Shown here one piece after another: positions 6,473-31,859 of a stretch of DNA of 64,000 nucleotides (position 1 is its first letter; each line of letters begins with the position of its first letter). This DNA comes from Mesorhizobium sp. WSM2240. GTDB lineage: Bacteria > Pseudomonadota > Alphaproteobacteria > Rhizobiales > Rhizobiaceae. The DNA lies in assembly GCF_040438645.1 (NCBI RefSeq), contig NZ_CP159253.1, positions 2,542,001-2,606,000 on the forward strand, written 5' to 3'. The notes under the pieces are model-generated. The model saw only the letters and a program-made list of their open reading frames with translations. It had not been told where the DNA came from and ran no database searches. A program made the position numbers and the translations under genes.

Positions 6473-7882
6473 TTATTCCGCTGCCTGTGCGCTCTGCTCC
6501 AGCCCAAGCCATTCGCGGCAATCGGCCAGCGCACGCGAGGTCACCGCCCGGCGCTTGGCGACGATCTTGTCCTTGCCACGCAGGCGCTTGCCTTCGGATT
6601 TCGGCGCCTCGACCGGTGGGAACAGGCCGAAATTGATGTTCATCGGCTGGAAGGAGCGTTTTCCCGGCTCGTCCTCGGAAACGATATGCCCGCCGGTGAT
6701 GTGGTTGAGCAGCGCGCCGAATGCGGTGGTGATCGGCGGTATGGAAGGCGACTGGCCCTGCAGTTCGGCCGCGGCGAAGCGGCCGGCAAGCAGGCCGACC
6801 GCCGCCGATTCCACATAGCCTTCACAACCGGTGATCTGGCCGGCGAAGCGCAGGCCTTCGCGACCCTTGAGCTGGAGCGACGGGTCGAGCAGCACCGGCG
6901 AATTGATGTAGGTGTTACGATGCAGGCCGCCGAGGCGTGCGAATTCGGCATTTTCCAGCCCCGGTATCATGCGGAAGATGCGGACCTGCTCGGCATGCTT
7001 CAGCTTAGTCTGGAACCCGACCATGTTGTAGAGCGTGCCAAGCGCATTATCCTGGCGCAGTTGCACGACTGCATAGGCCTTGACCTGCGGATTGTGCGCA
7101 TTGGTCAGGCCCATCGGCTTCATCGGTCCGTGGCGCGCCGTTTCCGCGCCGCGCTCGGCCATGACCTCGATCGGCAGGCAGCCGTCGAAATAGGGCGTTC
7201 CTTCCCATTCCTTGAAATCGGTCTTGCCGCCATCGAGCAGCGCCTGGATGAACGCTTCGTATTGCGGCTTGTCCATCGGGCAGTTGATGTAGTCCTTGCC
7301 GGTTCCGCCGGGTCCGACTTTGTCGTAGCGAGACTGGAACCAGCAGACATCCATGTCGATCGTGTCGAAATGGATGATGGGCGCAATAGCGTCGAAGAAT
7401 GCAAGCGCATCGGCGCCGGTCATCTCGGCGATCGCCTGCGCCAGCGACGGCGCCGTCAGCGGGCCGGTGGCGATGATCGACTGCGCCCAATCGCGCGGCG
7501 GCAGGCCAGCGATCTCCTCGCGCGCGATCGTGATCAGCGGATGCGCCTCGAGCTCGGCGGTTACTGCGGCCGAGAAACCGTCGCGGTCGACGGCCAGCGC
7601 GCCGCCCGCCGGCACCTGGTGCGCGTCGGCCGCGCGCATGATCAGCGAACCGGCAAGCCGCATCTCGGCATGCAGCAGGCCGACGGCGTTCGCCGTGGCG
7701 TCGTCGGAACGGAACGAATTAGAACAGACCAGCTCGGCCAGGCTGTCGGTCTTGTGCGCCTCGGTGCCGCGCACCGGGCGCATTTCGTGCAGGATGACCG
7801 GCACGCCGGCCTGCGCCGCCTGCCAGGCCGCTTCCGAGCCGGCGAGCCCGCCGCCGATGATGTGAAGTGGTTTCGTTGTCAT
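6473..7882 (-). CDS. trmFO: Folate/FAD-dependent tRNA (uracil-54) methyltransferase TrmFO
   Basis: TrmFO makes 5-methyluridine at tRNA position 54 using methylenetetrahydrofolate and FADH2. The 469-residue protein begins [20 protein letters not shown], a classic FAD dinucleotide-binding motif. It then shows [33 protein letters not shown], a family hallmark, followed by [24 protein letters not shown] and the C-terminal [29 protein letters not shown]. The start is set at 7882 because the FAD motif lies at the normal distance; upstream codons in the open frame have no family resemblance. It is divergent from the secreted protein at 7997. Confidence 0.96.
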
Positions 7883-7996
7883 CGCAGCGCAATAGTAGCC
7901 AGGGCCCGGAAATGCAAGAATCAAGGCCGCGTCCATGGCAAATGAACCTTCGCCGGTGGCATTGCTGCAGGGGCGGAGCGCGGCTAAATTGCTGTA

Positions 7997-8608
7997 GTGC
8001 CACATCGCTTACTAGCTGGCGCCGCTATGGTCGCCGCACTCACTTGGCTTCCCGCAGGGGGAGCCTCGGTCGCGGGCGAAAACACCGCGAAAATCAACGA
8101 TGCCGGCTCGACGCGCATCGAGATTTGCCATGGATTCGGCTGTCATTTCAGATCGGGGCTGGAGCTTGGGGCCAACGACGGAAGGCGCTTGTCCAGGATC
8201 ATGGCCGCTGGCGCATCTTCTCCGAAGGCCGAACGTGCCGCGGTATCAAAAGCGGTTCAATATTACGAGAGACGCGCCGCGGGAGTGATCGGCATCCGCG
8301 ACCAGCCTAAGTCGGATGCCAGTCAGTACGCCAAGCGCGGCCAGATGGATTGCATCGACGAGTCGACCAATACCCGCTCGCTTCTGCTCTATCTCGAGCG
8401 GCGCCGGCTTCTGAGGCATCACACCGTGCAACGCAACGTCACTCGGGGTTTCCTTCTGGACGGGCGCTACCCGCATTCTACGGCGGTGTTGCGGGAGAAA
8501 TCCGGAAAAGAATGGACGGTCGACAGCTGGTATGAGCCGGCAGGCGGTCCGCCGGACGTTCTGCCGCTGTCGGAATGGATGAAGCGCGGCGTCATGGGTG
8601 CACGCTGA
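7997..8608 (+). CDS. Secreted protein with transglutaminase-like C-H-D pattern
   Basis: The 203-residue product has a signal peptide ([27 protein letters not shown]) and a mature domain of a kind I cannot name with certainty. The order and spacing of [12 protein letters not shown] (Cys119), RYPHSTAVL (His160) and EWTVDSWY (Asp176) resembles the Cys-His-Asp triad of bacterial transglutaminase-like cysteine peptidases. The region between the Cys and His is mostly helix ([13 protein letters not shown]). The GTG at 7997 is preferred because it gives a complete signal sequence; an ATG at 8027 would shorten it. It is divergent from trmFO and convergent with the small-RNA array. The enzymatic role is inferred. 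Confidence 0.7.
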
Positions 8609-8641
8609 GCGCCGAATATCCGGCAGGTTGTGTTGAGGGCG

Positions 8642-8759
8642 CCAAAACGACAACACCCGCCGGGGGAGGAGGTCCGGCGGGTGTCGTTTTGGTGGCCAGC
8701 AATCGGGAGGAGGTGAATGCCGGCCGTATTCGCCAGTTCCTGGGAGGAGGTAGGTCCTG
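8642..8759 (-). ncRNA. Cuckoo-type small RNA module, distal copy (three hairpins)
   Basis: Read on the minus strand, three stem-loops each carry ACCTCCTCCC in or next to the loop. Plus-strand loop positions are 8742-8751, 8705-8714 and 8664-8673. Stems are 8734-8741/8752-8759 (two mismatches), 8694-8701/8718-8725 (one G-U pair only on the minus strand) and 8642-8663/8674-8692 (19 bp with a 3-nt bulge). The last ends in a TTTT tract on either strand, so it could also terminate transcription from both directions. The loop copies the 16S rRNA anti-Shine-Dalgarno sequence, as in the alphaproteobacterial cuckoo/CcsR family. Confidence 0.75.
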
Positions 8760-8804
8760 ACGAAATTCTTGTCGCTTGTTAAGGGAAGCTGGGCCCTTCT
8801 GGGA

Positions 8805-8918
8805 GACAACACCCGCCGGGGGAGGAGGTCCGGCGGGTGTCGTTTTGTGCCGGCCAGCGATCGGGAGGAGGTGAACGCTGACCGTATCCGTCAGGGTCGG
8901 GGAGGAGGTCGACCCTGG
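8805..8918 (-). ncRNA. Cuckoo-type small RNA module, DUF1127-proximal copy (three hairpins)
   Basis: This begins 10 bp after the stop of the DUF1127 gene at 8928. It has the same three-hairpin order as the distal copy, offset by 156-158 bp. Plus-strand loops GGGAGGAGGT lie at 8900-8909, 8863-8872 and 8820-8829. Stems are 8892-8899/8910-8917 (8 perfect pairs), 8852-8859/8876-8883 (one position pairs only as G-U on the minus strand) and 8809-8819/8830-8840 (11 perfect pairs). The RNA is probably cut from the DUF1127 mRNA. Confidence 0.78.
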
Positions 8919-8927
8919 CGAAATTCG

Positions 8928-9068
8928 TTAGACCGACTTCCTCGCGACGCGATAGATGTCGCCGCGGCTGATGCCGAGGTCGGTAAGTTCACGGTTCGAC
9001 AGGCGGCTCAGCTCGGAAACGGTTTCCCGGTAGCGGCGCCAGTTGCGGTAATTGCGGATCAGGTTCAT
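8928..9068 (-). CDS. DUF1127 small basic protein, second copy
   Basis: This 46-residue protein begins MNLIRNYRNWRRYRETVSEL and ends DIYRVARKSV. It has the DUF1127 pattern of arginine-rich helix, SRLSNRELTDLGISR turn and short basic tail. It is nearly a duplicate of the gene at 9118-9258; the first 29 residues are identical. Alphaproteobacterial DUF1127 proteins are small, often stress-induced, and at least one (CcaF1 of Rhodobacter) is an RNA-binding factor acting on the cuckoo RNAs co-transcribed with it. Here the cuckoo-type hairpins begin 10 bp downstream. GAGA lies about 9 bases upstream of the start as a weak ribosome site. Confidence 0.85.
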   Translation of the reverse strand: MNLIRNYRNWRRYRETVSELSRLSNRELTDLGISRGDIYRVARKSV

Positions 9069-9117
9069 TTCAGTTCTCTTTTTCTTGCTTGCGGACGGGG
9101 CCGCAATGGCCCGGACG

Positions 9118-9258
9118 TCAGACCGACTTGCGCGCGACGAAAGGAATGTCGCTGCGGCCGATGCCGAGGTCTGAAAGTTCGCGGTTCGACAGGCGGCTCA
9201 GCTCGGAAACGGTTTCCCGGTAGCGGCGCCAGTTGCGATAGTTGCGGATCAGGTTCAT
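9118..9258 (-). CDS. DUF1127 small basic protein, first copy
   Basis: The 46-residue product MNLIRNYRNWRRYRETVSEL...SRLSNRELSDLGIGRSDIPFVARKSV is a canonical DUF1127 domain occupying the whole protein. The ATG at 9258 is preferred over longer upstream extensions because its twin at 9068 starts at exactly the same point. The two genes are 49 bp apart, on the same strand, and differ mainly in the last third (GRSDIPFV against SRGDIYRV), so they arose by tandem duplication. The upstream region holds a probable promoter with a direct repeat at 9363-9385. A role as RNA-binding regulator is inferred from CcaF1 and the linked small RNAs. Confidence 0.87.
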   Translation of the reverse strand: MNLIRNYRNWRRYRETVSELSRLSNRELSDLGIGRSDIPFVARKSV

Positions 9259-9336
9259 GGTATTTCTCGTTTTCGTCTTTGGTTCGTTTTTCTTCTGTCT
9301 CTTGGTACGAAGCCTAAATAGGCCCGCCGGATTCGG

Positions 9337-9385
9337 ATTAAAAGTGCTGTTGGTGCATGGCAGCAATGCAAATTGTGCAATGCAA
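9337..9385 (-). promoter_or_regulatory. Predicted promoter and direct-repeat operator of the DUF1127/sRNA locus
   Basis: On the minus strand TTGCTG (9366-9361) and TTTAAT (9342-9337) are spaced by 18 bp and resemble a sigma-70 -35/-10 pair, placing the transcript start near 9330. TTGCATTGC occurs twice exactly (9385-9377 and 9371-9363), 14 bp apart, with the second copy overlapping the -35. This is a geometry used by LysR-type activators. The regulator's identity is a guess. Confidence 0.45.
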
Positions 9386-9496
9386 CATCAATCGGTTTTA
9401 GGGGTTGGAGCGAAAATTCGGCGAGTCGCAAAAATGCCGCTGCGTCAGCATCTTAGGCTAAAGGCGTAAAGTTGACGCTTGGGTAAGGGGAAACAG

Positions 9497-10609
9497 ATGG
9501 CGGGTTACGGGTCGCGTGTGCGGCGGGACATCCTTCGCTGGACGGAATTGGGCCTCATCGACAAGGCGGCAGCGGACGCGCTGCGCCGCGACGTGGACGC
9601 CAATGAGCGCAAGTCGCTGAGCTTCGGGTCCGTCCTCGCGATCATGGCGGCGCTGCTGTTCGGCGCGGCCATTCTCCTGGTCATCGCTGCCAATTGGGAG
9701 GCATTTCCGCGCCTGCTGCGCGTAGGCGCGCTGTTTGCCGTCATCTTCGCGGCCTATGTCGGCGGCGCGCTTTTCAAATTGCGCGGGAACAGCGCGATAG
9801 CCGAAGGCGTCTGGCTGGTCGGCGCGGCGGCGTTCGGCGGGTCGATCGCACTGATCGGACAAATGTATCATCTGTCCGGCGACGAGGCGGACGCGGTCCT
9901 GACCTGGTGCGCCGGCACCACGTTGGCCGCTGCCGCGCTGCGCTCCGGCCCGCTCACCGTCGCCGCCGTCGGCCTTGCCGCCTCCTGGCTGTTCCTGGAG
10001 GGCGTCGCATTGTGGAACGAGACCCGCGTACCCCTTTCCTTCATTCTGGTCGCGGCCGGCCTCTGGCTCCTGTCCTATTGGACGGCGAGCCGCGCGTCGC
10101 GAAACCTGCTGCTGCTCTCGCTGATCTTCTACGCCACGCTCTCAGCCGTGCATCACGACATGCTGGTCATCCCGGCCGTGCTGGCGCTCGTTTCGGCCGC
10201 GTTGTTTGCCGCTGCAGTCTACGCTCCCGACGCTGTCGAGAGAATTGCCCGCATGGACGGAAACATGCCCGCCCATGCGCTTATCGGCTTTCTGACGGGC
10301 ATGACCATCCTTCAGTTCGACCTTGTCGACGAGGGCGCGGCTCTGGTGACCGCCGCACTTGTGGGTTTCGCCGGCATCGCCGCCGCAGTCGTGCTAGGCG
10401 GCCGCGAAAGCCGCGGCTTGCGCTGGATCGCCTATCTCGGCTTCAGCTGCCAAATGGCGTTCGTCTATATCGTCACCGTCGGAACCATGCTCGGGACGGC
10501 CGGATTGTTCCTGGCGTCGGGCCTCGCGCTCGGGCTCGTTGCCCTCGTCATCATCAGGGTCGAGAGGCGGATGAACGATATGGCGCTGACACAGGGGGGA
10601 GCAGCCTGA
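9497..10609 (+). CDS. DUF2157 multi-pass membrane protein
   Basis: The 370-residue protein opens with a short cytoplasmic helix (RVRRDILRWTELGLIDKAAADALRRDV), the conserved DUF2157 head. About ten membrane helices follow, the first being FGSVLAIMAALLFGAAILLVIAANW. AAGGGG at 9485-9490 supports the ATG at 9497. It overlaps the next gene by ATGA, so the two are translated together. DUF2157 proteins commonly sit beside GDYXXLXY proteins, as here, but the pair has no established biochemical role. No catalytic residues are evident. Confidence 0.85.
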   Translation: MAGYGSRVRRDILRWTELGLIDKAAADALRRDVDANERKSLSFGSVLAIMAALLFGAAILLVIAANWEAFPRLLRVGALFAVIFAAYVGGALFKLRGNSAIAEGVWLVGAAAFGGSIALIGQMYHLSGDEADAVLTWCAGTTLAAAALRSGPLTVAAVGLAASWLFLEGVALWNETRVPLSFILVAAGLWLLSYWTASRASRNLLLLSLIFYATLSAVHHDMLVIPAVLALVSAALFAAAVYAPDAVERIARMDGNMPAHALIGFLTGMTILQFDLVDEGAALVTAALVGFAGIAAAVVLGGRESRGLRWIAYLGFSCQMAFVYIVTVGTMLGTAGLFLASGLALGLVALVIIRVERRMNDMALTQGGAA

Positions 10610-31629: not shown

Positions 31630-31859
31630 GAAAGGCGTCTCCCGTAGTTCCCCTCTCAGGAGGAACGAGTTGAACGGACCACTTCCTTTCGCGGGCCGCT
31701 CAAGGCCCGAAAGCGGGGTGGAATGCGCCGGCAGGCTTAGTCGCCAAGTGGCTGCCTTGCTGTCGCCGGGGCACGAGCATTATATAAGGGCTTGCGCCGG
31801 GATTGAAAGACGCGGACGCGCTACGGGCTGTTCTCGAAACGGCGACGGATTGGAACAAA

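Follow-up and report, generated by a model that had tools for sequence, protein, structure and literature searches.

Introduction

The CIN1 loci of the cuckoo RNA family are said to go back to Reinkensmeier and Giegerich in 2015. Such loci combine a short DUF1127 gene with hairpins that carry CCUCCUCCC loops on the same strand (PMC10253847; PMC3927594, section 2.7), and DUF1127-linked cuckoo RNAs have already been described under the name 'CIN1 locus' (PMC10253847). NfeR1 of S. meliloti, the founding member of the alpha-r14 family (RF02344), is activated by LsrB and silences ntrB by blocking its start region via anti-Shine-Dalgarno (anti-SD) loops, the three of which are redundant (PMC10746234). 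Short DUF1127-type genes in Brucella and Agrobacterium are activated by VtlR (PMC12595884); for one of these, atu1667, the literature available to us leaves open whether the protein or the RNA acts.

Here we describe a locus within a 64-kb stretch of DNA (the window, by which we mean the whole of the stretch analysed). Read along the minus strand, 8644-9388 opens with a promoter block, continues with two DUF1127 genes (9258-9118, then 9068-8928) and closes with two RNA modules of three hairpins each, so that short DUF1127 genes and CCUCCUCCC-loop hairpins share one strand as they do in the CIN1/cuckoo loci. The first-pass annotation had placed the locus at 8642..9385, which holds except for its upper end, as the conserved promoter block reaches about 9388. 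We consider it quite probable that the locus is a DUF1127-alpha-r14 operon ('CIN1 locus') read as one LsrB/VtlR-activated transcript, the processed sRNAs of which would repress SD-containing mRNAs.

The DUF1127 gene pair

The first gene (9118..9258, minus strand), encoding 46 aa, starts at an ATG within a longer frame listed with a TTG start, and the second (8928..9068, minus strand), also encoding 46 aa, is an open reading frame listed with its own ATG. Both proteins are rich in arginine; they match DUF1127 in Pfam (62.6 and 59.8 bits, cut-off 23.3) and thereby carry the domain that marks CcaF1-type proteins; a comparison with the NCBIfam profiles gave no family for either. The two copies are 89% identical in protein and 90% identical in DNA, which bears out the earlier description of two near-identical 46-codon DUF1127 genes on the strand of the hairpins. 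When compared with 16 relatives, copy 1 shows 173 changes at third, 72 at first and 41 at second codon positions, and copy 2 shows 272, 152 and 84, respectively. Because these changes fall mainly on the third position, both frames behave as expected for translated genes. Between the window's own two copies there is no third-position bias (6 third, 6 first and 2 second).

Copy 2 is 88-90% identical to copy 1 in DNA in the window's genus (3 genomes), and among the other 14 loci with two genes it is mostly a more distant paralogue (67-88%). We read the pair in the window's genus as a recent duplication or gene conversion. Five close kin (the window, L055, L056, L059 and L060) share one build, a DUF1127 pair with two or three modules. 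The downstream neighbour of the array is trmFO (6473-8005, minus strand; NCBIfam TIGR00137, 534.3 bits).

Two tandem alpha-r14 modules

On both strands of the 64-kb window the 8-mer CCTCCTCC occurs nine times in total, and six of these occurrences lie inside the array, all on the minus strand and all within ACCTCCTCCC. Folding of the minus-strand sequence 8642-8927 gives six hairpins at -134.9 kcal/mol, the loops of which all read ACCTCCTCCC / ACCUCCUCCC; 200 shuffled sequences gave a mean of -92.8 (sd 5.2, z -8.1) and none was as good (0/200). Rfam finds two tandem copies of alpha-r14 (RF02344) here, with scores of 89.7 and 94.1 bits against a gathering cut-off of 58.8. Module 1 (8804..8926, minus strand; E 5.8e-15) has its three loops at 8900-8909, 8863-8872 and 8820-8829. 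Module 2 (8648..8769, minus strand; E 6.3e-16) has them at 8742-8751, 8705-8714 and 8664-8673, and a linker of 34 nt (8770..8803, minus strand) separates the two. Both modules show the alpha-r14 build, in which the stems vary and each of the three hairpins has CCUCCUCCC in its loop, and hairpin 3 together with its flank is a perfect 43-nt repeat between them. The six minus-strand stem-loops with uniform loops, arranged as two three-hairpin modules, had been noticed in the first-pass annotation, and the fold, the 8-mer scan and Rfam all agree with it. It had also given 10 bp from the last DUF1127 stop to the first stem; the two are indeed close, at about 5-8 nt rather than at that figure.

The stems of alpha-r14 covary and the loops stay fixed. 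In 32 modules, picked from 52 three-motif modules and related to one another so that the changes are not independent events, 19 of the 29 pairs are changed on both sides and 95.1% of cells are paired. The covariation score for these modules is 0.440, compared with 0.226 +/- 0.011 in shuffles and no more than 0.146 when slid. One of the five covariation measures, 'further pair types', did not rise above the shuffles (42 vs 40.9; 197/500).

A cuckoo/CcsR-type system had been proposed for the array at first, with a covariance-model search named as a check. The class, DUF1127 with anti-SD-loop RNAs, stands; the family is alpha-r14 by Rfam instead of CcsR. Whereas both modules exceed the alpha-r14 cut-off, they score only 34.8 and 30.3 bits with the CcsR1 model (RF02791), below its cut-off of 65.3 despite E-values of 1.6e-6 and 3.4e-5. 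The RNA modules are thus members of the alpha-r14/NfeR1 family, related to CcsR1 in motif and not members of it by cut-off. Elsewhere in the window a THF-II riboswitch (31639-31677, minus strand) scores above its Rfam cut-off.

Terminator pattern

Hairpin 3 of module 2 and the UUUU tail that follows it (8644-8647) form a probable transcript terminator (8644..8690, minus strand), as judged by sequence, fold and tail comparison; a strict terminator scan of the minus strand, which excludes loops over 8 nt, does not list 8644-8690. Hairpin 3 of module 1 is without a U-tract. In the window, module 1 is followed by GTCTCCC and module 2 by GTCGTTTTGG. The same difference is seen in other loci: a hairpin-3 tail with at least four T was found in 0 of 21 internal modules, whereas 8 of the 11 modules in last position in those loci have one; the window and two loci of its genus are among those counted. 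The mean longest T run is 0.67 for all internal modules and 3.7 for those last modules. Single-module loci have weaker tails, with at least four T in only 3 of 20, and the contrast is therefore one between internal and last modules.

On the simplest reading of this pattern, internal modules have shed their terminators because transcription has to continue past them, and cutting then sets them free. A single processed transcript fits these data because the internal modules lack the U-tract that the last ones carry. CcsR1-4 are cut from the ccaF1 3' UTR by RNase E (PMC10253847). An RNase E-like RNWUU sequence precedes hairpin 1 in 37 of 52 modules, a motif too degenerate for this count to be taken as evidence.

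Linkage of DUF1127 genes and anti-SD RNAs across genomes

In a survey of 120 genomes of the order, alpha-r14 matches at E up to 0.001 occurred in 39 genomes and matches above the cut-off in 18, giving 75 matches of which 44 were above the cut-off. At least 27 of these 44 copies lie within 1 kb downstream of a same-strand DUF1127 match, a linkage that is possibly understated as weak DUF1127 matches are missing from the set used. At least 14 of the 18 genomes with an above-cut-off copy have at least one that is linked in this way. Among the matches listed, one of the 44 copies has a DUF1127 match only downstream on the same strand, and 16 have no DUF1127 within 1 kb.

A complementary sample started from the protein and comprised the best 80 of 313 DUF1127 loci, confirmed and from named genomes, with several loci per genome and hence not 80 independent cases. 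One member, L147, carries the name Bacillus subtilis and is an apparent contaminant. In 60 of these 80 loci (best 80 of 313), at least two CCTCCTCC motifs lie on the same strand no further than about 700 nt downstream; the other 20 have fewer than two. Motifs upstream of DUF1127 were found on neither strand in any of the 80 loci (best 80 of 313).

These counts also bear on which strand is active. Read on the plus strand, the array would present six strong Shine-Dalgarno sequences in hairpins, since GGGAGGAGGT occurs there six times, accompanied by two terminator-like stems. However, the alpha-r14 model matches the minus strand, and the conserved box and promoter are oriented as the RNA is. Opposite-strand DUF1127 was found near none of the 44 above-cut-off alpha-r14 copies (among the matches listed), and opposite-strand downstream motifs occur in only two of the 80 DUF1127 loci (L110 and L135; best 80 of 313). 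We reject the plus-strand reading on this strand consistency and see hardly any chance that it is correct.

Plasmids were sampled through 6 of 310 DUF1127-bearing records. Three of the six have four motifs about 200 nt downstream, one has a single motif and two have none; an LsrB-type box was found in none of the six (5 or 6 mismatches). The three records with four motifs and no box (L184, L185 and L186) are plasmid DUF1127 genes of Pseudorhizobium, Rhizobium and Agrobacterium.

Copies of alpha-r14 are also found behind other genes. The third copy in the window's genome (L003; G000:C1:1278585-1278700, plus strand) lies 17 nt past the stop of a phasin-like gene, and copies follow phasin-like stops elsewhere (L043, L046, L168 and L170), at 17 nt in G120 and G121 and at 81 and 77 nt in G064 and G096. 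Pfam Phasin_2 was confirmed for the two of the five phasin-like proteins that were checked, and phasin genes, too, may carry alpha-r14 in their 3' UTRs. In two sister genomes, four alpha-r14 copies (L038, L040, L041 and L042) lie 73-80 nt downstream of MucR-like genes, one of which was tested and confirmed as Pfam ROS_MUCR.

What the linked proteins do is a matter on which the literature is divided. They might have no RNA role and instead modulate a sensor kinase in the membrane, for example PhoR, sharing only a promoter with the sRNAs, given that short DUF1127 proteins of Agrobacterium act via protein contacts with PhoR and that Salmonella YjiS shows no RNA binding (PMC12501420). The strand-consistent linkage of DUF1127 and RNA in many genomes nevertheless leaves an RNA role open, CcaF1 does bind RNA (PMC10253847, PMC12501420), and the two roles are not exclusive. 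We give this kinase explanation a serious chance, a little short of even.

A conserved promoter with an LsrB/VtlR-type box

Alignment of five promoters from close relatives reveals a conserved promoter block (9354..9388, minus strand), in which 33 of the 34 columns of 9355-9388 are identical in 5/5. It includes the LsrB/VtlR-type box CATTGCTGCCATGCA (9354-9368), which agrees at 13 of 15 positions (two mismatches) with the VtlR motif CAATGCAGCCATGCA from Brucella DUF1127 promoters (PMC12595884); by this sequence match, the promoter has the 15-bp VtlR box that characterises the LsrB/VtlR regulon. A putative core promoter of the alphaproteobacterial sigma-70-like type, CTTTTA-N17-CTATTT (9316..9344, minus strand), was picked out by eye, and CTTTT and CCTATTT occupy conserved places after the block in all five close promoters. 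The core promoter of NfeR1 homologues, for comparison, is CTTAGAC-N17-CTATAT (PMC10746234). One DUF1127 gene of S. meliloti is reported to have an attenuating upstream ORF (PMC12218461); here no ATG lies between the putative core promoter and the first DUF1127 ATG (only ATG starts, in this stretch).

The box was scored within 320 nt upstream of the DUF1127 match against two variants, one of them taken from the window itself, so that close kin are favoured. On this basis, sites with at most two mismatches precede 38 of the 80 DUF1127 loci (best 80 of 313) and 0 of 638 control windows, and sites with at most three precede 58 of the 80 (best 80 of 313) and 13 of 638. Six of the 38 box-bearing loci (best 80 of 313) are without two downstream motifs. 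In L110 and L135 the LsrB-type box is present although the anti-SD motifs are on the opposite strand. The window's genome has two other alpha-r14 copies, both unlinked to DUF1127, and neither has a box within 150 nt (5 and 6 mismatches), which speaks against box control as a rule that covers every alpha-r14 copy. A LysR gene adjoins trxB on the same strand in this genome, and vtlR/lsrB beside trxB is a reported arrangement (PMC7486931). As an LsrB/VtlR-type box precedes the DUF1127 gene, the DUF1127 proteins and the RNAs are probably both under the regulator that is known to act on NfeR1 and on the short DUF1127 genes, and we infer from the sequence that LsrB may drive the DUF1127-alpha-r14 operon.

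Alternatively, each module could be an sRNA gene in its own right, with its own promoter and no tie to DUF1127 other than its position, like the stand-alone NfeR1 of S. meliloti, an autonomous 123-nt transcript with its own promoter (PMC10746234). The 16 of 44 above-cut-off copies that are not DUF1127-linked (among the matches listed) accord with such autonomy, as do box-like sites with at most three mismatches just upstream of DUF1127-unlinked copies, although these were seen in only 6 of the 26 examined. At this locus, however, the first stem begins just a few bases after the DUF1127 stop, and the inter-module linker is only 34 nt. A scan of 8500-9600 for the E. coli-type sigma-70 consensus gave 0 sites, hence none directly before either module. 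Furthermore, the box precedes the DUF1127 pair in 5/5 close promoters and the terminator tail is missing from internal modules. We therefore regard independent sRNA genes as improbable here.

Loops and targets

The loops of the array have the polarity of the 16S rRNA 3' end, that is, of the anti-SD sequence. A search for the 16S 3'-end pattern in the window's genome assembly gave 0 exact matches and, with one mismatch, 3 inexact places; the assembly seems to lack or mask it. Loops of this polarity can pair with mRNA Shine-Dalgarno sequences and not with the ribosome's own anti-SD. The first-pass annotation had suggested that such RNAs may titrate ribosomes, which we reject on this sequence logic as the loops mimic the 16S 3' end itself; its other suggestion, that they may target SD regions, is a possibility that the loop polarity permits. 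The DUF1127 start regions of the window, CGAGAAATACCATG and AAGAGAACTGAAATG, match the loops poorly, and self-repression of the DUF1127 genes therefore looks unlikely. Exact GGGAGGAGG (9 nt) occurs 4-10 nt before an ATG at 9 places in the genome, compared with 4 for the reversed control pattern, and five of those 9 ATGs open long frames. Real alpha-r14 targets would need shorter seeds than an exact 9 nt.

Discussion

In the operon model that we favour, a single sigma-70-type promoter, activated by the LysR-type regulator LsrB/VtlR, would give one RNA that encodes the two short DUF1127 proteins. Two alpha-r14 sRNAs would then be cut from its 3' part, the last of them ending at the terminator. 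Each mature sRNA would present three identical ACCUCCUCCC loops able to pair with purine-rich Shine-Dalgarno regions, and the sRNAs would, like NfeR1, repress the translation of mRNAs for stress and nutrient uptake.

Arrangements of this kind have been described before in this bacterial class, and the locus is a well-conserved case. The present analysis adds the exact RNA family, the pattern of strands and terminators, and an LsrB-type box by which protein and RNAs would be joined in one regulon. The link between LsrB box, DUF1127 and RNA is not stated in those parts of the LsrB and DUF1127 literature that were available to us, and either the box or the terminator pattern may already appear in the original cuckoo and CcaF1 papers. 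A large family here physically joins a tiny protein of disputed function, credited with RNA binding in Rhodobacter and with kinase binding in Agrobacterium, to anti-Shine-Dalgarno sRNAs. The LsrB/VtlR box ties the literatures on NfeR1, on the VtlR-regulated small proteins and on CcaF1-CcsR into one testable unit.

By analogy with the action on CcsR of CcaF1, a protein credited with binding its linked RNAs and with furthering their maturation together with RNase E, the DUF1127 proteins might act on alpha-r14 RNAs. A bolder proposal, tentative and in our view rather unlikely, is that DUF1127 proteins are dedicated alpha-r14 partners in Rhizobiales. LsrB would then control, through one promoter, both the RNAs and a protein that matures or chaperones them, acting in cis here and in trans for NfeR1-like copies. 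If true, this would supply a helper for the Hfq-independent NfeR1, whose RNA chaperone, if any, its authors call an open question (PMC10746234), and the linked DUF1127 protein would be a concrete candidate for that chaperone.

Comparison with known systems

The VtlR/LsrB-activated genes of Brucella (BAB1_0914, BAB2_0512 and BAB2_0574) and Agrobacterium (atu1667) resemble the present locus in their short DUF1127-type proteins and a similar 15-bp box; the portions of PMC12595884 and PMC7486931 available to us make no mention of an sRNA array behind them.

The CcaF1-CcsR1-4 operon of Rhodobacter sphaeroides is alike in that a DUF1127 gene, several anti-SD-loop RNAs and a terminator follow one another on one strand. 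It differs in that the window has three hairpins per module and the CcsR1 model stays below its cut-off here. The window's proteins are of 46 aa and in duplicate, whereas CcaF1 is single and of 71 aa (PMC10253847); in size they are nearer to the short DUF1127 proteins of Agrobacterium, with 47-48 aa (PMC12501420). Furthermore, the promoter of the CcaF1 operon is of the RpoHI/RpoHII type (PMC10253847), in contrast to the conserved LsrB/VtlR-type site of the window.

With alpha-r14/NfeR1 the modules share three hairpins, CCUCCUCCC loops, a length of about 123 nt and an LsrB-type box ahead of the unit. In contrast to NfeR1, which the literature presents as transcribed on its own, the window holds two tandem copies directly behind DUF1127 genes.
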